Positions 8,649-17,883 of a DNA stretch of 64,000 nt are shown one piece after another. Origin of the DNA: Peptoniphilus genitalis (GTDB lineage: Bacteria; Bacillota; Clostridia; Tissierellales; Peptoniphilaceae). The first letter of the stretch is position 1; each line of letters opens with the position of its first letter. Where the stretch lies: assembly GCF_023614525.1 (NCBI RefSeq), contig NZ_CP097885.1:742501-806500 (forward strand), given 5' to 3'. Made by a program: the position numbers and the translations under genes. The notes under the pieces were generated by a model. The model was given only the letters and a program-made list of their open reading frames with translations, was not told where the DNA came from and searched no databases.

Positions 8649-9068
8649 ATGGAAAAAAATCCAATACCACAAGGAAGATACTTGCCAGCCAAGAAGTCAC
8701 AGGGATTTATTTACTCAGCAGGTATGACCCCAAGACTTGACGACAAACTAATATTAGAAGGAAAAGTCACAAGTGATAAGGAAATCTCTTTTTATCAAGA
8801 AGCAGTAGTCCAAGCAACAAAAAATGCCTTGGCAGCAATAAATAACACCTTAGAAGAAGGCGAAGTCTTAGAAGAAATAATTTCCATGACAGTCTATGTA
8901 AATGCAGAAGAAGATTTTACGGCCCACTCAAAGATAGCAGACCTTGGATCAGACTATCTCTTTGACGTCCTTGGAGAAAAAGGAATCTCTCCAAGAGCTG
9001 CAATAGGAGTAATGACATTGCCTGGTAACGCCCCGGTAGAAATCCAACTAGTAGCAAGTTATAAGTAA
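8649..9068 (+). CDS. RidA/YjgF family enamine/imine deaminase
   Basis: 139 residues, near the usual length for RidA. Visible family features are the YSAGMTP segment, the MTVYVN strand, and the active-site signature SPRAAIGV followed by LPGNAPVEIQLVASY, whose Arg binds the substrate carboxylate. RidA hydrolyses reactive 2-aminoacrylate and related enamines/imines from PLP enzymes, releasing ammonia. That suits an amino-acid fermenter with many lyases. GAGGTG supports the start at 8649. It is divergent from the ABC exporter and followed by pnuC, which has its own promoter. Confidence 0.9.
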   Translation: MEKNPIPQGRYLPAKKSQGFIYSAGMTPRLDDKLILEGKVTSDKEISFYQEAVVQATKNALAAINNTLEEGEVLEEIISMTVYVNAEEDFTAHSKIADLGSDYLFDVLGEKGISPRAAIGVMTLPGNAPVEIQLVASYK

Positions 9069-9166: not shown

Positions 9167-9862
9167 TTGAAAAAATTTATTAGACATTTAAACAATTATT
9201 TTACTAGATTCGAAAAAATATTATGGTTTTTTTCATGCTCCGTAATTTTTATCACATCTTTATTTTTCGGTGATGATCTTCTATCACTGATAGCATCTTT
9301 AATAGGTGTTACATCACTTATTTTTTGTGCCAAGGGTAATCCTATAGGACAATTTCTTATGATTTTATTCAGTTTATTGTATGGATATATTTCCTATACT
9401 TTTTCTTATTATGGTGAAATGTTTACTTACTTGGGCATGACTATGCCAATGGCTACTTTTTCCTTAATAGCTTGGCTTAAAAACCCCTATAAAGGTAATA
9501 AAAATGAAGTAACCATATCTTTGTTAAAGGCAAAAGATTATATTATTTTAATTTTTTTGACTATGTTAGTTACATTTGTTTTCTATTACATTTTAAGTTA
9601 CTTTAATACATCTTATTTAGCTTTAAGCACAGTGTCTATAGCAACTAGTTTTTTTGCCGTTTATTTAACTTTAAAAAGAAGTCATTTTTATGCAATGGCA
9701 TATGCTTGTAATGATATAATTTTAATATTTTTATGGATTTTTGCCTCAATAGAAAACTCAAGCTATATACCTGTAATAATTTGCTTTATTATTTTCTTAA
9801 TTAATGATTTATATGGATTTATAAATTGGAAAAGAATAATGAAAAGACAGATGGCTATGTGA
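9167..9862 (+). CDS. pnuC: PnuC-family nicotinamide riboside/vitamin transporter
   Basis: 231 residues, with about seven hydrophobic segments, as in the PnuC fold. Conserved-looking parts are IGVTSLIFCAKGNPIGQ after the first helix pair and NDLYGFINWKRM at the end, where PnuC proteins carry the substrate-gating W/N residues. PnuC takes up nicotinamide riboside by facilitated diffusion coupled to intracellular phosphorylation. The start is TTG at 9167; no ATG is available, and AGGGAGG lies about 14 nt upstream, a long but possible spacing. Base composition is AT-richer than its neighbours. No NAD riboswitch fold is seen in the roughly 33-nt leader. Confidence 0.85.
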   Translation: MKKFIRHLNNYFTRFEKILWFFSCSVIFITSLFFGDDLLSLIASLIGVTSLIFCAKGNPIGQFLMILFSLLYGYISYTFSYYGEMFTYLGMTMPMATFSLIAWLKNPYKGNKNEVTISLLKAKDYIILIFLTMLVTFVFYYILSYFNTSYLALSTVSIATSFFAVYLTLKRSHFYAMAYACNDIILIFLWIFASIENSSYIPVIICFIIFLINDLYGFINWKRIMKRQMAM

Positions 9863-10010
9863 TTTATATTAGAAAAATTGAATATTTAATGATATGTTTA
9901 TTGATATAACATTTTTTCTAAACTAAATGCTTCATAATTTGTTTTGTAAAGTTTATTCCTTTATTTTCATTTATCTTAATAAACGGAATATTGTTTTTGC
10001 TGACAATACA

Positions 10011-10062
10011 AAAAACCAATGGTATTGAGTCAAGGAGTTCATCCAATCCCATTGGTTTTTTT
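10011..10062. terminator. Bidirectional terminator between pnuC and the acnX operon
   Basis: 12-bp stem AAAAACCAATGG/CCATTGGTTTTT with a 26-nt loop. It has T tracts on both strands, so it can end both converging transcripts. Confidence 0.75.
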
Positions 10063-10081
10063 AATATACACTTTTTTAATT

Positions 10082-10768
10082 TTATAATTTTATAAACTCT
10101 TTAACTAGAACCTCATATGACCATTTCAAATGCTCTTCTAGAATTTTAGTCGTTTCTTCTAAGTTTCTTCTTTTGATCGCATCAAGTATCTCTAAGTGAA
10201 ACTCCGTACTCTCAACTGTAGTATCAGTTAATGTGTAAGCTTCTTGCTGATATCTATCAATTTGACTTTTAATATTTGAATAAATCCCTTTTATATAATC
10301 ATTAGTTGAATTTTCTAAAATTAACATATGGATTTCTTCATCTTTTCTTATTAAATACTCACTAGAAATACTTTCAAGGTTTTGTTTTTTTTCCAAGATA
10401 TCTTTTAAATCATTTTCAAGTTTACTTATTTCCATGTCAGAAATATTGTTTATGGATGATTTTATTGCAATTTTTTCTAAAGCAATTCTAAGTTCATATA
10501 TGTCAGCTAAATCTTTAACCGATAATTCTCTAACTATATTCCCAACCCCATCAACACTTTTTAAATATCCTTCTTGTTCTAGTCTAGTGAGTGCTCTCTT
10601 AACAGGGGTTCTGCTCATATTAAGTTTTTCCCCTATTTTTTTTTCAGTTAAAAGTTCCCCACCTTTTACATCGCCAGAAACAATTAAATCTCTTAAATAA
10701 AAATAAGCTTTATCAGATAGTGTTTGTTTTTTTACATAATTTCCTTTTTCCATTGATGTCATCTTCAA
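10082..10768 (-). CDS. GntR-family regulator, FadR/FCD subfamily
   Basis: 228 residues. The N-terminal winged helix (about 15-85) contains LTEKKIGEKLNMSRTPVKRA. The C-terminal FCD ligand domain shows the usual metal/ligand residues: D and H in DEEIHMLIL, H in STEFHLEIL and H in LEEHLKWS. FCD regulators bind carboxylates, sometimes through a metal, and often repress an adjacent catabolic operon. It is the last gene of the acnX-TRAP operon, 7 nt after the dehydrogenase. The best operator candidate is the palindrome at 16301-16319 over the operon promoter, implying autoregulation. The start is uncertain: TTG at 10768, ATG at 10762 or ATG at 10753; none has a strong ribosome site. Confidence 0.9.
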   Translation of the reverse strand: MKMTSMEKGNYVKKQTLSDKAYFYLRDLIVSGDVKGGELLTEKKIGEKLNMSRTPVKRALTRLEQEGYLKSVDGVGNIVRELSVKDLADIYELRIALEKIAIKSSINNISDMEISKLENDLKDILEKKQNLESISSEYLIRKDEEIHMLILENSTNDYIKGIYSNIKSQIDRYQQEAYTLTDTTVESTEFHLEILDAIKRRNLEETTKILEEHLKWSYEVLVKEFIKL

Positions 10769-10775
10769 TCTTAAT

Positions 10776-11747
10776 TTAAATTACTGGATCCCTTGGTTCT
10801 TCTCCTTTTAAAACTGCTTCTAAATTTCCCAATGCAAACTCTTTCAATGCTTTCATTGATTCAATAGAGATGTAGGATATATGAGGAGTTACCAAAATAT
10901 TTTTTTCTAAAAATATTTCTTCATCTCCATTAGGTGGCTCATTAGTAATAACATCTACTATTGCCCCAGCTATTTCTTTACTTCTAACAGCTTCTATTAA
11001 ATCAGATTCATTAATAACTTTTCCTCTAGATGTATTTATAATGCTGGCTGTATTTTTCATTAGTTTAAACTCATTCATAGATATTTTATTTTTGTTAGCA
11101 TCAATACCCTTAAGGTTTACGCTAATATAATCAGCCATTTTAAAGCCTTCTTCCCAGTCAAGCTTCTTTACTCCATATTTTTCTATTTCGGTTTCGCTCA
11201 AGAACTCATCAACTGCATAAATATTTATTCCAGTTCCTTTAACTTTATCAGCTATAGCCTTTCCTATTGCACCAAATCCTACAATAACTAAGTTCTCTTC
11301 TGATAATCTATGAGTTGGTTTCTCTATAACAAGAGATCCCCACTTCCCAGCTTTTACATTTTCTAAGCATGTGTTTGCGTAATATTGAATTTTTTTATTA
11401 AAATGATATATTGCAGCTAATGTGTAATCCGCTAAATCTTCAGCACAATAACCTTGTATATTGGTTACTCTTATGCCTTTTTCTTTACACGCATCTAAAT
11501 CAATTCTGTCGTATCCACCACCATAAGTTGAAATAACTTTACAGTTTTCAAGGTTTTCTATGGTACTTCTTGGTATTTCAGCATACACTTGCGCTAAAAT
11601 TGCATCTGCTTTATATCCAAATTCTTTAAGATCTTCTTCATAATTGTAATTAGAGATTCTGATATCAACATTTTCAAATACTTTTGGTAAATACTCATTT
11701 TCTAAATCATAATCTGTCCATTCTTCGTCTATAATCCAAACTAACAT
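10776..11747 (-). CDS. NAD-dependent D-2-hydroxyacid dehydrogenase family protein
   Basis: 323 residues. The substrate domain and Rossmann domain are arranged as in SerA/D-lactate dehydrogenase relatives. The nucleotide motif GFGAIGK is followed by an acidic residue (AVDEF), which indicates NAD rather than NADP. The catalytic Arg-Glu-His triad is visible in NTSRGKV, ITNEPP and TPHISY. It probably oxidises or reduces a 2-hydroxy/2-oxo acid in the pathway of this operon. It sits 11 nt after dctM and 7 nt before the GntR gene. The substrate is unknown; assignment as phosphoglycerate dehydrogenase is not supported by context. RBS AGGAG stands before the ATG. Confidence 0.88.
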   Translation of the reverse strand: MLVWIIDEEWTDYDLENEYLPKVFENVDIRISNYNYEEDLKEFGYKADAILAQVYAEIPRSTIENLENCKVISTYGGGYDRIDLDACKEKGIRVTNIQGYCAEDLADYTLAAIYHFNKKIQYYANTCLENVKAGKWGSLVIEKPTHRLSEENLVIVGFGAIGKAIADKVKGTGINIYAVDEFLSETEIEKYGVKKLDWEEGFKMADYISVNLKGIDANKNKISMNEFKLMKNTASIINTSRGKVINESDLIEAVRSKEIAGAIVDVITNEPPNGDEEIFLEKNILVTPHISYISIESMKALKEFALGNLEAVLKGEEPRDPVI

Positions 11748-11758
11748 TTTTTACTCCT

Positions 11759-13027
11759 TTATAAAAATACAGTTGTTACAACTGGAACAAAAGTTACAAG
11801 CATTAACACAACTAACAGCGCTATAATAAACTTAATAATTTCTTTAGAAATAACGCTCATTCCTACTTTCGAGATAGCTGTGGCTACAAATAAATTAATT
11901 CCATATGGTGGTGTACAAAATCCTATCGCTAAGTTCATTGTTAACATTATACCAAATGTTATTGGGCTCATTCCCAATTTTAAAACTATAGGCAACAAGA
12001 TTGGTGTCAATATAATTGTACCTGGTATATTATCAATAAACATTCCAACAATTATTAAGAAGATATTTATTAAAATTAAAATTACAATACCATTATCACT
12101 CAGTGATGTAATAAATGTTGCTATCTTTAGAGGTATTTGTTCCATAGTCAGCAACGCTGCAAAAGCTGTAGACAAACCAACCATGAATGTTGTTGCTCCA
12201 TTAACTACGATAGCATCTCTAAAAGATTTATAAGCATCCTTTAGATTTAACTCTTTATACACAAATACGCCTACTATAAATGAATATACAACTGAAACTA
12301 CTGCAGCTTCTGTTGGTGTAAATATACCAGCATAAATACCACCTAGAATTATAACTGGCGACATTATTGCCCAAAAAGCTTCTTTAAAAGTGGTAAATAT
12401 TTCTTTAATACTTTTCTTTTCCTCATTACCTTTATATCCATTTTTTTTCGAAACAATATAGCAAACAATCATGAGTGCTACGCCCATTAATATTCCTGGT
12501 AAAAATCCTGCTGTAAACATTTGAGTAATAGAGGCTCCTGATACAACCCCATAGATAACAAAAGGAACACTCGGTGGAATAATTACTCCAATAGTTCCTG
12601 CTGCAGCTGTTAATGCTGTAGAGAACCCTTTGCTATATCCATGCTCTACCATCTGAGGTATCATGAACGCACCTACAGCTGAAACAGTTGCTACAGCTGA
12701 GCCTGATATAGCTGCAAAAAACATACAAACTACTATCGTTACCATTCCAAGTCCACCTGTAATATGGCCAATAAATGATTGAAAGAAATCTACAAGTCTC
12801 TTAGCAATTCCACCACTACTCATCAAGTTTCCAGCTAGCATAAAAAACGGTATCGCTAAAAGGGGAAATGAATCTACACCAGCAACTGAATTTTGAGCAA
12901 TCATCATAGTCGGCATATTTGTAAAGCCTACTATATTTATTAAAGTTGATATCCCTATTGCATAACCTATAGGTACACCAAGAATTAATAGTATAAAAAA
13001 TACTCCAAATAAAACTAGAGACTCCAT
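11759..13027 (-). CDS. dctM: TRAP transporter large membrane subunit DctM
   Basis: 422 residues, the usual DctM length. It is almost wholly hydrophobic, with about 12 membrane segments and the DctM loops AIPFFMLAGNLMSSGGIAKR and AAAGTIGVIIPPSVPFVIYG, and FIDNIPGTIILTPILLP in the second half. DctM forms the Na+-driven transport path for carboxylates delivered by DctP. It starts 1 nt from the end of dctQ, so the two are coupled. The partners in this operon suggest import of a hydroxy- or other carboxylic acid that aconitase X then dehydrates. Confidence 0.95.
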   Translation of the reverse strand: MESLVLFGVFFILLILGVPIGYAIGISTLINIVGFTNMPTMMIAQNSVAGVDSFPLLAIPFFMLAGNLMSSGGIAKRLVDFFQSFIGHITGGLGMVTIVVCMFFAAISGSAVATVSAVGAFMIPQMVEHGYSKGFSTALTAAAGTIGVIIPPSVPFVIYGVVSGASITQMFTAGFLPGILMGVALMIVCYIVSKKNGYKGNEEKKSIKEIFTTFKEAFWAIMSPVIILGGIYAGIFTPTEAAVVSVVYSFIVGVFVYKELNLKDAYKSFRDAIVVNGATTFMVGLSTAFAALLTMEQIPLKIATFITSLSDNGIVILILINIFLIIVGMFIDNIPGTIILTPILLPIVLKLGMSPITFGIMLTMNLAIGFCTPPYGINLFVATAISKVGMSVISKEIIKFIIALLVVLMLVTFVPVVTTVFL

Positions 13028-13028
13028 A

Positions 13029-13541
13029 TTAAACCTCCCTTATGTCCGAATTATCTGTAACTAAAACTTTTTTACCAGAAATTAAGTCTATAGAATCAAA
13101 CAGTATTCTTATTGCTAATATAAATGATGAAACAGGGAGTGCAGCATAAACATAAACTAAAGGTAGTCTCATACCAGAAGATAAAGCATTCCTAGCATTC
13201 ATTGATCCCAATAACTTCACTCCAACATAAACTAAAAACACATTGAACGAAAACCATATTATATTATTAATCAAATGTAATACTTTTTGTGAGTTTTCTG
13301 ATTTAAAGATACTAAATATTAAATCAACCCTTATATGTTGATTATCTACAAACGCTATACTACTTCCTAGCCACACTTGCCATATAAATATGTATCTGGA
13401 TAACTCTTCAGACCAAGTTAGAGAAGTATTGAAAAAATATCTCATAATAACTTGCATAAAAATTATAATTACATTTAACACCAAGCTAGAAACCAAAACT
13501 ATTTCTTCAAATTTATTAAATTTTTTAAGTAAATTTCTCAT
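13029..13541 (-). CDS. dctQ: TRAP transporter small membrane subunit DctQ
   Basis: 170 residues with four predicted membrane helices, as in DctQ. The segment MQVIMRYFFNTSLTWSEELS followed by RYIFIWQVWLGSSIA is the typical DctQ core, with the NTSLTWSEEL motif. It stabilises DctM and docks the binding protein. It has its own ribosome site (AAAGGAG) directly after the intercistronic hairpin, so it may be translated at a different level from dctP. Confidence 0.93.
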   Translation of the reverse strand: MRNLLKKFNKFEEIVLVSSLVLNVIIIFMQVIMRYFFNTSLTWSEELSRYIFIWQVWLGSSIAFVDNQHIRVDLIFSIFKSENSQKVLHLINNIIWFSFNVFLVYVGVKLLGSMNARNALSSGMRLPLVYVYAALPVSSFILAIRILFDSIDLISGKKVLVTDNSDIREV

Positions 13542-13556
13542 AATATATACTCCTTT

Positions 13557-13588
13557 TTAGAAGAATTGGAAAATTCCAATTCTTCTAA
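13557..13588 (-). other. Intercistronic hairpin between dctP and dctQ
   Basis: A perfect 15-bp stem (arms 13557-13571 and 13574-13588, core AGAAGAATTGGAA) with a 2-nt loop. On the transcribed minus strand it is followed by AAAAAGGAG, not by T, so it is not a usual terminator. Such hairpins often protect the 3' end of binding-protein mRNA and raise its level over the membrane subunits. Confidence 0.8.
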
Positions 13589-13596
13589 GTATAATT

Positions 13597-14637
13597 TTAT
13601 TTATTATATTTTTCACATAAATCAAATAGTTCTTGTCCAAATTGCTTTTGATATTTATCGTACATTGGTTGTACTGCTTTTCTAAATTCTAGTTTTTGAT
13701 TATTATCTAGTACATTAGTAATAAGTTTTCCTTCTGTTTCAAGGTCTTTTATAGCTTTTTCATTATCTACTAATTCCATTTCTCTTTGTTCTTCTACAAA
13801 AACTTTTGCTTCACTTTCTAGCAATTCTTGCATTTCACTGTCTAAAGAATCAAAAACATTTTTATTAATTAAAAATGGCAAGAAGTTATGAACATGTTCA
13901 TCTATTGTTTGATATTTTTGAACTTCATAGAACTTGTTTGCAAAAGTTAAAGAAGGAGGATTTTCTTGTGCATCAACAGTTCCTTGTTGTAAACCTGTGT
14001 ATAACTCAGTAAAACTCATAGGTGTAGGATTTGCTCCAATTGTTTTGTAAAAGTCAATAAAAATTGGACTTTCCATAACTCTCATTTTTACTCCCTTTAA
14101 ATCTTCAGGTTTTTCTATAGGGCCAGAGTTTGTAGTTGTAGATCTAGGTCCGTTATATACATATCCTAGACATTTAATTCCTTGTTCTTCTAGCTTTTTG
14201 TTGAAGTATTCTCCAACTTCTCCATCTAATGCATTAAAAGCTGATTCACTATTTAAAAATAGATATGGCATATCCAAAATTCCAAATTCTTCAGAATAAG
14301 TAGTTAATACAGAAGTAGAAGGTAGTGTAGATTGTAAAGTACCCATAGCTACGGATTCTGTCATTTGAACGTCTCCACCTAATGATCCATTAGGGTAGAT
14401 CTCAATTCCTATTTTTCCGTTACTTTTTTCTTCTACATTCTTTTTAAAGTTAACTAAAGCTTTGTGCGTAGATCTACTTTCAGGTTCTACGTGACCTATT
14501 TTTATTATTACATCTCCAGATGCTGGCTTAACTGCATCTCCAGCAGTAGCAGTGTTTTCTGACTTCTCTTTTTTCCCGCAAGCAACTAAAGTTAAAGCGA
14601 TGAATAGAAAAGCAAGCACTTTATATAATTTTTTCAT
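13597..14637 (-). CDS. dctP: TRAP transporter substrate-binding lipoprotein DctP
   Basis: 346 residues. The signal peptide ends in lipobox LVAC with Cys20, so it is a membrane-anchored lipoprotein outside the cell. The DctP core is clear: KIGHVEPESRSTHKAL near the start of the mature protein, the helix with GVKMRVMESPIFIDFY (its Arg normally binds the substrate carboxylate), and GLQQGTVDAQENP. Close DctP relatives bind C4-dicarboxylates, sugar acids or other acids; the ligand here cannot be read from sequence. It lies 16 nt downstream of the small aconitase X gene. Confidence 0.95.
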   Translation of the reverse strand: MKKLYKVLAFLFIALTLVACGKKEKSENTATAGDAVKPASGDVIIKIGHVEPESRSTHKALVNFKKNVEEKSNGKIGIEIYPNGSLGGDVQMTESVAMGTLQSTLPSTSVLTTYSEEFGILDMPYLFLNSESAFNALDGEVGEYFNKKLEEQGIKCLGYVYNGPRSTTTNSGPIEKPEDLKGVKMRVMESPIFIDFYKTIGANPTPMSFTELYTGLQQGTVDAQENPPSLTFANKFYEVQKYQTIDEHVHNFLPFLINKNVFDSLDSEMQELLESEAKVFVEEQREMELVDNEKAIKDLETEGKLITNVLDNNQKLEFRKAVQPMYDKYQKQFGQELFDLCEKYNK

Positions 14638-14653
14638 AGTTTACTCCTTATTT

Positions 14654-15058
14654 TTACAAAATTGTAATCTCTTCATTTGTAGCGTCAATAATTATTTTGT
14701 CTCCCTCTTTAATATCCTTATAAAATTGAGGATCAACTTTATCAACTAATGGAATCTCGAAAACTATCGCACTCGTTACTAGAACGGTTTCTGGATATTC
14801 AACAATCATACCAGCAGGTTGATTTTTATACTTCATTAATTGAAATAATCCATCCGCTTGAACAACAGAACTTCCTTTTCCAGAAGGGAAAACTAGTATT
14901 TTCCCTGACATACTCCTACCTGTGAAATCATGATTTGGTTCAATCATCTTTCCTGTTTCAGGTTCTAGCAAATAAAACATTATCGGATCTTTCGAAATAG
15001 TTACCTCTGCTTCTACTTTTCCGTCAGAAATTTTATGGCATTTATAAACTTTACTCAT
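14654..15058 (-). CDS. Aconitase X swivel domain (small subunit, DUF126)
   Basis: 134 residues. The mobile 'swivel' domain of aconitase X is recognised from FTGRSMSGKILVFPSGKGSS, whose SGKGSS loop closes over the active site, and from the following AIVFEIPLVDKVD strand. It is encoded apart from the catalytic subunit, as in many bacterial AcnX, whereas in some species the two are fused. Its ATG overlaps the TAA of the large subunit by one base (TAATG), so the pair is translationally coupled and should assemble as one Fe-S hydro-lyase. Confidence 0.93.
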   Translation of the reverse strand: MSKVYKCHKISDGKVEAEVTISKDPIMFYLLEPETGKMIEPNHDFTGRSMSGKILVFPSGKGSSVVQADGLFQLMKYKNQPAGMIVEYPETVLVTSAIVFEIPLVDKVDPQFYKDIKEGDKIIIDATNEEITIL

Positions 15059-16263
15059 TATTTAACCCTCCCTGTTAAAGCTGCATCAACACAAGTATCT
15101 AAGTCTCTTATTACGAAATCAATCCCTCTTCTCTTAGGATAATATGCACATTTTGGAGATTCTGTCACACCTACTTTTCCTTTAAGGAACTTCCAAATAG
15201 GTTGATCTGGACATGTACTTGGAACTATATGTGCTCCGAGCTTTTCCATATCTTCAGAATAACCCATTATATCACAAAGGTGTTTTACATGAGATGATAC
15301 TAATATCCACATATCTTTTTCTAGCTTTCTCCCATCAATTCTTTCTGAGATATGTCTAACTTCATCTAGAGTAAAGTGTGGACATCCAAACATTGCAAAA
15401 TCTATTTCTCTTTCTCCTTCTAGAGAAATATTTTCTAATACTTCTTCAAAGTCCTCATTTGTTATTGTAACTTTTCTCTCAGGTTCTTTTCCACCAAATG
15501 CCATTTCCAATGTCTGAGCCTCTGGTGTAAATCCTACAATATGGTACATATCATATGCACCTGATGTATTTAGTTGAGCCCCTAGATTTCTTAAGGCTTC
15601 TTTACTAATATGTTCAGGTAGTCCAACAAATACCGGTATTCCATGTCCTATTTTTTTACCACACATTCCCAACATATGATAATCATAGTCGTTTTTCATG
15701 TCAGCCTTCACTTCAACTAGTATTGTTCCCTTTCTGTTTTCATCTAGTAATAGTCCATATTCAGGAACATATCCAGTTATTGCTGCAAATAATGCAGAGT
15801 TAGCTCCTTCCCTATTTGATCTTGCTCCCCAAACAGAGTTAACGTATGGTGTCGCGCTAGATTCTGAAAATGCAGTGATTTCACCAAAATTTGGTACGTT
15901 AGTATCTATATATGGCGTGCAATTATAAGATAATGTAGCTCCCAGTTTCTTATAAGCTTCATGAGTTCTCTGCATCATTTCATAATCTTCTTTATCACCC
16001 ATACCTCTCTCTTTAAAATATGGTATCCCCCATCCTGGATTTACAGTTGGAGAAACTCTACAACGAGCTCCTAAATTAACCATTTTTTCTGCTAACCATA
16101 AATCTGCATCTTGATTACTTAGTGCAACATGGGCCCTAGTAATTGGAACCATTCTTTTTGCTCCAAAAGATTCTCCAATTGCAACTTGTACTTTCATTGC
16201 AAGTTGAGCACCTTCGCCATATTTACCATCTAATAAATCTTGTTGATCTTTTGTTAGTTTCAA
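15058..16263 (-). CDS. Aconitase X catalytic subunit (AcnX, Fe-S hydro-lyase)
   Basis: 401 residues from a TTG at 16263, chosen because GAGAGGAGAGG lies just upstream and homologues begin at this KLTKDQQ segment. The frame extends to an ATG at 16320, but that ATG would lie inside the operator. AcnX signatures are clear: NCTPYID (Cys115), FSESSATPYVNSVWGARSNR, AAITGYVPEYG, FGCPHFTLDEV (Cys294) and PSTCPDQP (Cys351); the three Cys are the likely cluster ligands. Characterised family members are bacterial cis-3-hydroxy-L-proline dehydratase and archaeal mevalonate-5-phosphate dehydratase. Substrate here is unproven. It is the first gene of the operon with the small subunit, TRAP, dehydrogenase and GntR genes. 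Confidence 0.9.
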   Translation of the reverse strand: MKLTKDQQDLLDGKYGEGAQLAMKVQVAIGESFGAKRMVPITRAHVALSNQDADLWLAEKMVNLGARCRVSPTVNPGWGIPYFKERGMGDKEDYEMMQRTHEAYKKLGATLSYNCTPYIDTNVPNFGEITAFSESSATPYVNSVWGARSNREGANSALFAAITGYVPEYGLLLDENRKGTILVEVKADMKNDYDYHMLGMCGKKIGHGIPVFVGLPEHISKEALRNLGAQLNTSGAYDMYHIVGFTPEAQTLEMAFGGKEPERKVTITNEDFEEVLENISLEGEREIDFAMFGCPHFTLDEVRHISERIDGRKLEKDMWILVSSHVKHLCDIMGYSEDMEKLGAHIVPSTCPDQPIWKFLKGKVGVTESPKCAYYPKRRGIDFVIRDLDTCVDAALTGRVK

Positions 16264-16300
16264 GTATACCTCTCCTCTCATTGATATGAAAACAATTTCT

Positions 16301-16340
16301 TGTATACTAGAAGTATACATCTAACGCTTTACTATGTCAA
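16301..16340 (-). promoter_or_regulatory. acnX operon promoter with overlapping palindromic operator
   Basis: On the minus strand TTGACA (16335-16340) and TATACT (16312-16317) are 17 bp apart, a near-consensus promoter. The inverted repeat TGTATAC-N5-GTATACA (16301-16319) overlaps the -10 and the likely start point, an ideal place for repression. The GntR protein encoded at the end of the operon is the likely binder (inference). Confidence 0.85.
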
Positions 16341-16628
16341 TATGTTTTTTAATAAAATTATTTTTTATTTTATTTTAATCTTAATCTTCTTATGCATGAC
16401 TAAATAATTAATATAACTATAAAAACTTTTTTATTTAAATTCATTATATTATGCATTTTAGATTAATTATTTTTAACTTTTGTAAGAATTCGTTTTCAAT
16501 TAATATTAATATAAGTTTTATATTCAAGCTTTATATTAATTCATAATTATTCAAAAACTTTTCATTACTATTTTATACTTTAATACTTAATTCTAGCCAT
16601 AAGTTGTTTTATAAGTTTGCAACAAAAA
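16341..16628. other. Intergenic AT-rich region between acnX operon and tuf
   Basis: Apart from the operon promoter on its right-strand side and the tuf terminator at its end, nothing is recognised. It is very AT-rich with no open frame of note. Confidence 0.5.
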
Positions 16629-16656
16629 AGAGGGAGCATAAACTCCCTCTAATTTT
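16629..16656 (-). terminator. tuf terminator
   Basis: 8-bp GC-rich stem AGAGGGAG/CTCCCTCT (16629-16650), loop of 6, with six T after it on the minus strand. Confidence 0.9.
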
Positions 16657-16689
16657 ATTTATTAAGATTTGTCTGTTAATCCCAAAGGA

Positions 16690-17883
16690 TTAGTCAATAA
16701 TCTTTGATACTACTCCTGATGCTACAGTTCTTCCACCTTCACGAATAGCGAATCTTAGTCCTTCGTCCATTGCGATTGGTGTGATTAGTGTTACTGTAAA
16801 TGTTGAGTTATCTCCAGGCATTACCATTTCTACGCCTTCTGCTAGTTGGATATCTCCTGTTACGTCTGTTGTTCTGAAGTAGAATTGTGGTCTGTATCCG
16901 TTAAAGAATGGTGTGTGTCTTCCACCTTCTTCTTTTGTTAGTACGTACACTTCTGCTTCAAATTTTGTGTGTGGGTGAATTGTTCCTGGTGCTGCTAGTA
17001 CTTGTCCTCTTTGGATTTCTTCTCTTTGTACACCTCTTAGTAGGGCTCCAATGTTGTCTCCTGCTTCTGCTTGGTCTAGTTGTTTTCTAAACATTTCAAC
17101 ACCTGTTACTACTACTTGTCTACTTTCGTCTGTTAGTCCAACTAGTTCTACTGTGTCTCCTACTTTTACTACACCTTGTTCTACTCTTCCTGTTGCTACT
17201 GTACCTCTACCTGTGATTGAGAAGATGTCTTCGATAGGCATTAGGAATGGGTGTTCTGTATCTCTTACTGGAGTTGGGATGTATTCGTCAACTTCATCCA
17301 TAAGTTTTGCTACTTTGTCTCCCCATTCTCCGTCTGGTTCTTCGATTGCTTTAAGTGCTGATCCTACTACGATTGGAGTGTTGTCTCCGTCAAAGTCGTA
17401 TTCTGATAGTAGGTCTCTTACTTCCATTTCTACTAATTCAATTAGTTCTGGATCGTCTACTTGGTCTTCTTTGTTTAGGAATACTACAATCTTTGGTACA
17501 CCAACTTGTCTTGCAAGTAGGATGTGTTCTCTTGTTTGTGGCATTGGACCGTCTGCAGCTGATACTACTAGGATTGCTCCGTCCATTTGTGCTGCTCCTG
17601 TGATCATGTTCTTAACATAGTCAGCGTGTCCTGGGCAGTCTACGTGTGCGTAGTGTCTGTTTGCTGTTTCGTATTCTACGTGAGAAGTTGAAATTGTAAT
17701 TCCTCTTTCTCTTTCTTCTGGAGCCTTGTCAATGTGTGCGTAGTCAACGAATTCTCCGCCGCCATATCTCTTGTTCATTACAAGTGTGATTGCAGCTGTA
17801 AGTGTTGTCTTACCGTGGTCAACGTGACCAATTGTTCCAATGTTTACGTGTGGTTTATTTCTTTCAAATTTTGCTTTTCCCAT
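16690..17883 (-). CDS. tuf: Translation elongation factor Tu
   Basis: 397 residues, full length. All GTPase motifs are present: GHVDHGKT (G1), the RGITI switch I Thr, DCPGH (G3), NKED (G4) and SAL (G5), followed by the two beta-barrel domains. It brings aminoacyl-tRNA to the ribosome. AGGAGG stands 6 nt before the ATG, and codon use is strongly biased, as expected. It stands alone, away from the str operon (rpsL-rpsG-fusA), which suggests either a second copy or a rearranged str cluster. Confidence 0.99.

Follow-up and report, generated by a model that had tools for sequence, protein, structure and literature searches.

An aconitase X clade linked to HutU and a transporter operon of Peptoniphilus genitalis with a probable role in urocanate metabolism

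The window analysed here, a stretch of 64,000 nucleotides from Peptoniphilus genitalis (contig NZ_CP097885.1, positions 742,501 to 806,500), contains a seven-gene operon in which the two subunits of an aconitase X (AcnX) are combined with a tripartite ATP-independent periplasmic (TRAP) transporter, DctPQM, a D-isomer-specific 2-hydroxyacid dehydrogenase (2HADH) and a GntR-family regulator. The AcnX of this unit probably represents a new clade of the family that acts in urocanate metabolism, and what is new here is the co-occurrence of this clade with HutU. Judging from gene content, the operon would import a hydroxylated imidazole-propionate, most likely imidazole-lactate, and convert it to urocanate as feed for the HutU/HutI pathway of the same cell, a proposal to which we give an even chance. 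No earlier report of a link between AcnX and urocanate was found among the titles and abstract beginnings listed from the open full-text literature, a scope outside which subscription journals lie, and the string 'urocan' was absent from the text of the AcnX papers searched, including PMC10040528.

Co-occurrence of the AcnX clade with HutU

HutU was sought in 76 clade genomes, corresponding to 80 AcnX loci minus L058 (the same record as L048), L107 and L108 (the assemblies of L039 and L040) and L094. It was present in 72 of the 76 (47/49 and 25/27 in two sets), the genomes lacking a match being G542, G544, G570 and G585, of which G544 has a HutU fragment at the contig end of its locus L093. 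In a sample of the phylum, HutU exceeded the cut-off in 127 of 398 genomes. Four clade members fell within this sample, all with HutU, and when these and the window genome were removed the background was 122 of 393, giving an odds ratio of 40 for the clade genomes. Genomes carrying other kinds of AcnX served as a negative control and displayed no enrichment (10/25, p 0.38). The urocanate-linked AcnX clade as defined here is thus characterized by co-occurrence with HutU, and its tie to urocanate is strong. The window genome itself encodes HutH, HutI and HutU at 636-658 kb.

The original prediction was of a candidate undescribed catabolic pathway. The tie to urocanate and histidine breakdown, which could not be seen from the sequence alone, makes the unit resemble an additional way into an established pathway more than a wholly separate one, with an entry step that has probably not been described before.

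HutH, the histidine ammonia-lyase, was sought in 49 of the 76 genomes, and no HutH-family gene was found in seven of them (Desulfotruncus arcticus, Heyndrickxia acidiproducens, Sporolactobacillus shoreae, S. terrae, Pectinatus cerevisiiphilus and two metagenome-assembled genomes (MAGs)), a number to be read with the fact that draft assemblies can hide such a gene. All seven are among the 16 genomes with hutU or hutI in the AcnX stretch, versus none of the 33 others (p 1e-4; 4e-4 without G544), in a split by hut-linkage that was chosen after seeing the data. Several different hosts thus seem to combine AcnX in a hut cluster with a lack of HutH; their urocanate would be expected to come from some other reaction, for which AcnX would seem to be the hydro-lyase at hand. 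The window genome does have HutH, and the operon there would therefore be a second entry to urocanate.

Assignment of the AcnX clade

Both subunits belong to the AcnX family, the large one scoring 438.1 bits with PF04412 (cut-off 31.5) and the small one 84.9 bits with PF01989 (cut-off 27). The structural model of the large subunit (pLDDT 90.7) has its closest solved fold in 7cnr_A (Z 46.4, root-mean-square deviation 2.0, 379 aligned residues, 37% identity) and also resembles 7cnq_A (Z 36.0, deviation 2.3 over 400 residues), and the small subunit matches 7cnr_B (E 2e-22). Two AcnX activities are recognized in PMC8184944, cis-3-hydroxyproline dehydratase (types I and IIa) and mevalonate-5-phosphate dehydratase (type IIb); the bacterial types IIc-IIf of that paper carried no assigned activity there in 2021.

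In the AcnX tree the window protein is placed in a clade of 77 rows (SH-aLRT 100, stem of 1.02 changes per column), with both solved enzymes outside it; several of the deeper nodes of this tree join long branches and are uncertain. Residue conservation in the large subunit was read from the window sequence and 75 of 81 open reading frames (ORFs) of 395-435 amino acids, together 76, two of which fall in another AcnX branch and leave 74 clade rows. For the small subunit the window and 63 other sequences were used, with an offset of one, which we infer, between the printed chain and the numbering of the paper. Invariant in 74/74 rows are the three cysteines, Glu140, Lys377, Tyr381 and Asn81. In terms of phosphomevalonate dehydratase, Cys110/Cys283/Cys342, Glu129 and Lys361 are kept in all 74. 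Ser63, Ser64, Tyr29, Gln67 and Asp69 are found in 64/64 small subunits.

Phosphomevalonate dehydratase was rejected as an identity: although its cluster ligands are matched, the type IIb phosphate loop Gly48-Val49-Ser50 is replaced by Leu (73 of 74), Ser (73) and Asn (71), and Asn53 is deleted in 74/74. The clade resembles the type IIb enzymes of T. kodakarensis (7cnr/7cns) and A. pernix in having two subunits, three cysteines as ligands and the conserved Glu, Lys, Tyr and serine of catalysis, and departs from them in its phosphate-loop residues, gene company and invariant residues. Among the latter are Gln57, Asp60 and Trp62 (74/74) after the phosphate-loop region and Gln67 and Asp69 of the small subunit (64/64) after the catalytic serine, all of which differ from both known enzymes.

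That the substrate would be something other than cis-3-hydroxy-L-proline had been proposed from the operon partners, and, as far as sequence can tell, this expectation is supported by phylogeny and active site alike. The cis-3-hydroxyproline dehydratase family is the sole NCBIfam match of the large subunit, which speaks for this activity, but the scores of 223.7 (large) and 40.2 (small) lie far from the equivalog cut-off of 700 bits; such low scores are in part expected of split subunits because the model describes a single chain of 555 positions. The window protein shares with the solved enzyme (7cnp/7cnq) its family and the residues for carboxylate and hydroxyl, but falls outside its branch, and the hydroxyproline-specific Asp203 is deleted in 76/76, the Cys510 position is empty and Trp35 is Tyr in 64/64. 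The position of Thr72, like Asp203 and Trp35 a substrate residue of that enzyme, is Val in the window. The type I enzyme is furthermore a single chain with a [2Fe-2S] cluster, as described in PMC8184944. Score, residues and tree thus speak against cis-3-hydroxy-L-proline dehydration, which was rejected and which we regard as extremely improbable. By its landmark residues the clade appears to be neither of the two known dehydratases. It is probably one of the types IIc-IIf left open in PMC8184944, which are there likewise bacterial, of two subunits and devoid of the landmark residues of either activity.

The window genome holds one AcnX. Large-subunit matches occur in 13 of 120 genomes of the same family. 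Among named genomes, Peptoniphilus vaginalis has the closest AcnX (99% identity), and hosts of the clade include Peptoniphilus, Clostridium, Blautia, Acidaminococcus, Pectinatus, Sporolactobacillus and Synergistaceae. Three loci of Peptoniphilaceae (L022, L024 and L030) carry stand-alone AcnX pairs of 46-49% identity that lie inside the clade and have no adjoining TRAP or dehydrogenase genes. A second, distant AcnX large subunit follows directly behind the clade AcnX in L046 (3252-4553) and L058 (11633-12934), where HutH-like genes form part of the same run; this second copy falls in the other AcnX branch, and the conserved Asn and Tyr are missing from it.

Gene neighbourhoods

The neighbourhoods of the 80 loci were clustered and then recounted by tblastn with self-chosen bit thresholds, a recount prompted by antisense ORFs ('c9') in some loci; as some loci end at contig edges, the per-locus counts are lower bounds. 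The small subunit is present at 80/80 loci, LarA at 40, and 2HADH and the TRAP permease DctM at 34 each, and 2HADH, LarA or Ldh2 is found within about 10 kb at 66. The association of AcnX with the dehydrogenase therefore persists in other genomes, for 2HADH itself at 34/80 loci and for any 2-hydroxyacid enzyme at 66/80. Together with the position of AcnX outside the hydroxyproline branch and the absence of that enzyme's substrate residues, this lends support to the suggestion of another hydroxy acid as substrate, or of a modified route. The arrangement AcnXL-AcnXS-DctP-DctQ-DctM-2HADH, in some cases followed by GntR, is also seen in further genera of the family (L021, L025, L027, L028) and in named genomes (L034, L035, L036, L047), so that the grouping is not due to chance.

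Within the fetched stretches HutU is encoded at 18 loci, HutI at 16 and HutH at 15; HutU or HutI is present at 20 and any hut gene at 29. These hut-linked loci include AcnX relatives 72-76% identical to the window protein, and on the tree AcnX copies with and without hut linkage are intermingled (12 changes). The HutU proteins of L046, L054, L099 and L109 and the HutI of L054, the five tested, all exceed their NCBIfam equivalog cut-offs. Among four HutH-like neighbours one passes clearly, one passes a subfamily cut-off only and two fall short. An M20 neighbour resembling N-carbamoylglutamate hydrolase passes only a broad hydantoinase/carbamoylase model, and an amidohydrolase resembling various deaminases passes no model cut-off.

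IorAB-like genes occur at 3-4 of the 80 loci and HisC-like matches at 14, a count that may include unrelated aminotransferases. Along with LarA, these neighbours appear to point to aryl-lactate and aryl-pyruvate. LarA1 of L052 scores above the 'nickel pincer isomerase group 22' cut-off and LarA2 of L066 above none; no solved relative of the LarA1 of L044 was found by sequence at E 0.01, and a text search of four LarA papers gave no mention of 'group 22' or 'aconitase'.

In two Synergistaceae operons (L083 and L090), AcnX, LarA and 2HADH are accompanied by genes resembling IorAB and acyl-CoA ligase, all below equivalog cut-offs. These operons would suit a reaction in the direction of hydration, in which urocanate is imported, hydrated to imidazole-lactate and oxidised for energy via imidazole-pyruvate by IorAB and an ADP-forming acyl-CoA ligase, and the archaeal AcnX reaction is described as reversible in the relevant passage of PMC10040528. 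HutU would be dispensable in such a scheme, yet it is near-universal in the clade and commoner than HutH (47 vs 42 of 49), and we consider hydration an unlikely direction.

Several hosts are classic hydroxyglutarate-pathway fermenters, and one may ask if the unit serves glutamate and 2-hydroxyglutarate metabolism downstream of histidine, with a C5 hydroxy acid as the AcnX substrate. This would leave the HisC-like and IorAB-like neighbours, those resembling histidinol dehydrogenase (HisD) and the clusters of Sporolactobacillus and Pectinatus unexplained, and it is very improbable.

Other neighbours are less frequent. A HisD-like gene lies near AcnX at 9/80 loci (L069, L093, L094, L098, L100, L101, L105, L106 and L111), often with genes for short-chain dehydrogenases/reductases (SDR), zinc alcohol dehydrogenases (ADH) or sugar-type ABC transporters, and a separate polyol-like feeder route is possible there. 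MttB-like (trimethylamine-methyltransferase) genes are found at 5/80 (L091, L096, L104, L045 and L058), some with HutH or xanthine-dehydrogenase-like genes; we presume that they may concern histidine betaine (hercynine).

Operon layout and regulation

The window operon consists of seven ORFs on the minus strand with gaps of 7, 11, 1, 55 and 16 nt and an overlap of 1 nt between the AcnX genes, and all seven products exceed their Pfam cut-offs (GntR and FCD, 2HADH, DctM, DctQ, DctP, AcnX_swivel and AcnX). The tight unit and the gene identities first assigned to it thus agree with the reanalysis, and the operon is real, behind one promoter with a dyad. Its features are as follows.

10082..10768, minus strand: GntR-family regulator with FCD domain, last gene (Pfam GntR 52.6 bits, FCD 67.6 bits, both above cut-off)
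10776..11747, minus strand: 2HADH (Pfam 2-Hacid_dh and 2-Hacid_dh_C)
11759..13027, minus strand: DctM, TRAP large permease (Pfam DctM 410.9 bits)
13029..13541, minus strand: DctQ, TRAP small permease (Pfam DctQ 108.4 bits)
13556..13589: strong hairpin of 15 pairs between dctP and dctQ (terminator-like scan)
13597..14637, minus strand: DctP, TRAP solute-binding protein (Pfam DctP 295 bits)
14654..15058, minus strand: AcnX small (swivel) subunit with the presumed catalytic serine (Pfam PF01989 84.9 bits)
15058..16263, minus strand: AcnX large subunit, likely TTG start (Pfam PF04412 438 bits; the listed ORF reaches ATG 16320)
16269..16279, minus strand: ribosome-binding-like sequence GAGAGGAGAGG, read directly
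16301..16319, minus strand: dyad TGTATACTTCTAGTATACA (TGTATAC-N5-GTATACA) overlapping the -10, probable GntR operator
16312..16340, minus strand: sigma-70-type promoter TTGACA-N17-TATACT (11/12 matches)
16629..16650, minus strand: terminator-like hairpin after the upstream EF-Tu gene (by scan; EF-Tu named by ORF inspection)

The large subunit probably starts at TTG 16263 behind GAGAGGAGAGG, which gives 401 amino acids as in relatives; ATG 16320 is improbable because it lies upstream of the expected transcript start, within the promoter and dyad. The promoter is the best of 42 sites listed in 9800-16700, a number near the shuffled mean of 37.5. The dyad is the sole site without mismatch in the genome of 1,917,962 bases, and a dyad with at most one arm mismatch is found anywhere in the stretch at 17/32 loci with TRAP and GntR genes versus 6/48 others; it is therefore probably the operator of the FCD regulator. 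A site with two mismatches lies at 645695-645713, in the neighbourhood of the hut region. The hairpin between dctP and dctQ perhaps raises the level of the binding protein. Beyond the operon end, past a pnuC gene, a RidA-family gene is located at 8649-9068 on the plus strand, and RidA genes are also found near AcnX at 6/80 loci.

Both Pfam domains of the 2HADH score well above cut-off (146.2 vs 25.1 and 81.9 vs 24.6 bits), the protein remains below every NCBIfam equivalog cut-off, and its translation has, by inspection, plausible motifs of the catalytic Arg/Glu/His triad. Relatives of 47-49% identity come from Sporolactobacillus and Heyndrickxia, where they lie in clusters of the hut type, and from the Faecalispora clusters, and 25 of 31 neighbourhood 2HADHs join the window protein in one single-linkage group at 45% identity or more. 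One dehydrogenase group therefore accompanies AcnX in both settings. The DctP model (pLDDT 89.8) resembles many TRAP binding proteins; the best two, a sugar-acid protein (Z 41.8) and a C4-dicarboxylate protein (Z 41.6), are practically level, ahead of sialic-acid proteins at Z 38-39.

Proposed reaction and alternatives

The genes for 2HADH, LarA and Ldh2, those like IorAB and HisC and those for HutU and HutI meet at imidazole-lactate and imidazole-pyruvate, and the AcnX step is therefore proposed to be the dehydration of imidazole-lactate to urocanate. In this scheme DctPQM would import the hydroxylated imidazole-propionate and the two AcnX subunits would form an Fe-S hydro-lyase, with a cluster like that of the [4Fe-4S] archaeal enzyme to judge from the three-cysteine set. 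The 2HADH would interconvert D-imidazole-lactate and imidazole-pyruvate, and the LarA-type isomerase of other genomes would convert the other enantiomer of imidazole-lactate. The GntR/FCD protein may sense the acid and repress from the dyad over the -10, and the imidazolium ring would have to act as electron sink in place of a carboxylate. For this scheme we infer the product (urocanate), the substrate (imidazole-lactate), the direction, the stereochemistry, the type of cluster and the regulation.

HutU and HutI would be downstream steps common with the Hut pathway, from which the scheme differs in that an AcnX hydro-lyase would replace or supplement histidine ammonia-lyase as the source of urocanate. 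The Fld/Had phenyllactate and 2-hydroxyisocaproate dehydratases, which are radical and CoA-dependent, act on the same compound class (aryl-lactate to aryl-acrylate), whereas the seven genes of the operon include no CoA transferase, activase or such dehydratase, and AcnX is an unrelated protein. A Tissierellia MAG (G029, L209:6593-12808) has HutU followed by a CaiB-type CoA-transferase, an acyl-CoA dehydratase activase, a HadB-like 2-hydroxyacyl-CoA dehydratase subunit (below cut-off) and acyl-CoA dehydrogenase/Etf-like ORFs, and possibly follows a radical route via imidazole-lactyl-CoA and urocanyl-CoA.

Several observations weigh against imidazole-lactate dehydration. Known AcnX substrates are 3-hydroxy acids, with the C2 proton beside the carboxylate. 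The C3 proton of imidazole-lactate has no carboxylate beside that carbon and would be hard to remove, and for such steps anaerobes usually use radical 2-hydroxyacyl-CoA dehydratases. The residues binding the carboxylate of a 3-hydroxy acid are kept (Lys377 and Tyr381 in 74/74, Ser141 in 72/74), a pocket that would seem to fit a 3-hydroxy acid better, and a 3-hydroxy or 2,3-dihydroxy imidazole acid is a possible substrate. At 14/80 loci no 2HADH, LarA or Ldh2 is nearby, hut genes are in the stretch at only 3/34 TRAP-type operons, an aromatic-acid ligand is not favoured by DctP modelling, and the genome-wide site scan gave no intact dyad at the hut genes of the window genome. The after-the-fact split by hut-linkage belongs here as well, and among HutU-positive clade genomes HutH was not found in 6/47, a rate not significantly above the 8/122 of the background (p 0.22). 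Finally, the HutU tests treat related genomes as independent, although effect size, host spread and the negative control all speak against relatedness alone as the cause of the link.

The conserved pocket bears directly on two other substrates. The plain beta-hydroxy acid dehydration of 3-hydroxy-3-(imidazol-4-yl)propionate to urocanate, as in relatives, would agree with the carboxylate-binding Lys, Ser and Tyr and the Fe-site Glu and would account for the HutU linkage; it would leave 2HADH, LarA and Ldh2 at 66/80 loci without a role, and the compound is to our knowledge not a common metabolite, for which reasons we hold this reaction to be unlikely. A 2,3-dihydroxy acid, e.g. 2,3-dihydroxy-3-imidazolylpropionate, could be dehydrated to a 2-keto acid (imidazole-pyruvate) for 2HADH, an aminotransferase or IorAB. 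The kept 3-hydroxy-carboxylate pocket, genes for HisD, SDR, ADH and sugar-type ABC transporters in the surroundings of AcnX at 5-9/80 loci and the resemblance of DctP to sugar-acid binding proteins, among others, are consistent with this reaction. It gives no urocanate in the seven genomes where HutH was not found, HisD is near just 9/80 loci and we know of no source of the dihydroxy compound, which makes it a rather doubtful alternative.

Returning to imidazole-lactate as the substrate, the broadest form of the proposal is that the clade as a whole would be a CoA-independent, non-radical [4Fe-4S] imidazole-lactate hydro-lyase making urocanate, which would let bacteria use imidazole-lactate released by lactobacilli and, with a transaminase and 2HADH, would provide a path from histidine to urocanate around histidine ammonia-lyase where none was found. 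We put this general form forward tentatively, at somewhat below even chances.

Source of the substrate and significance

In the passages of PMC8669023, PMC9942568 and PMC12682059 that concern imidazole-lactate, this compound is reported to be raised or produced, in culture or in models of the cervix, by Lactobacillus crispatus, L. paragasseri and L. iners, and the first of these papers terms it a final product of histidine degradation. P. lacrimalis, a related species, is among the bacteria studied for histidine catabolites in the corresponding passage of PMC9307755. None of these passages in the four papers is about the AcnX operon.

The urocanate link names the pathway of one AcnX clade and narrows the search for its substrate to a few compounds, which can be assayed by urocanate absorbance. 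If imidazole-lactate is the substrate, vaginal and gut anaerobes would feed on what has been called an end product of histidine degradation. The Hut pathway would then have an entry point independent of histidine ammonia-lyase, and the dehydration of an aryl-lactate would need neither CoA nor radical chemistry.

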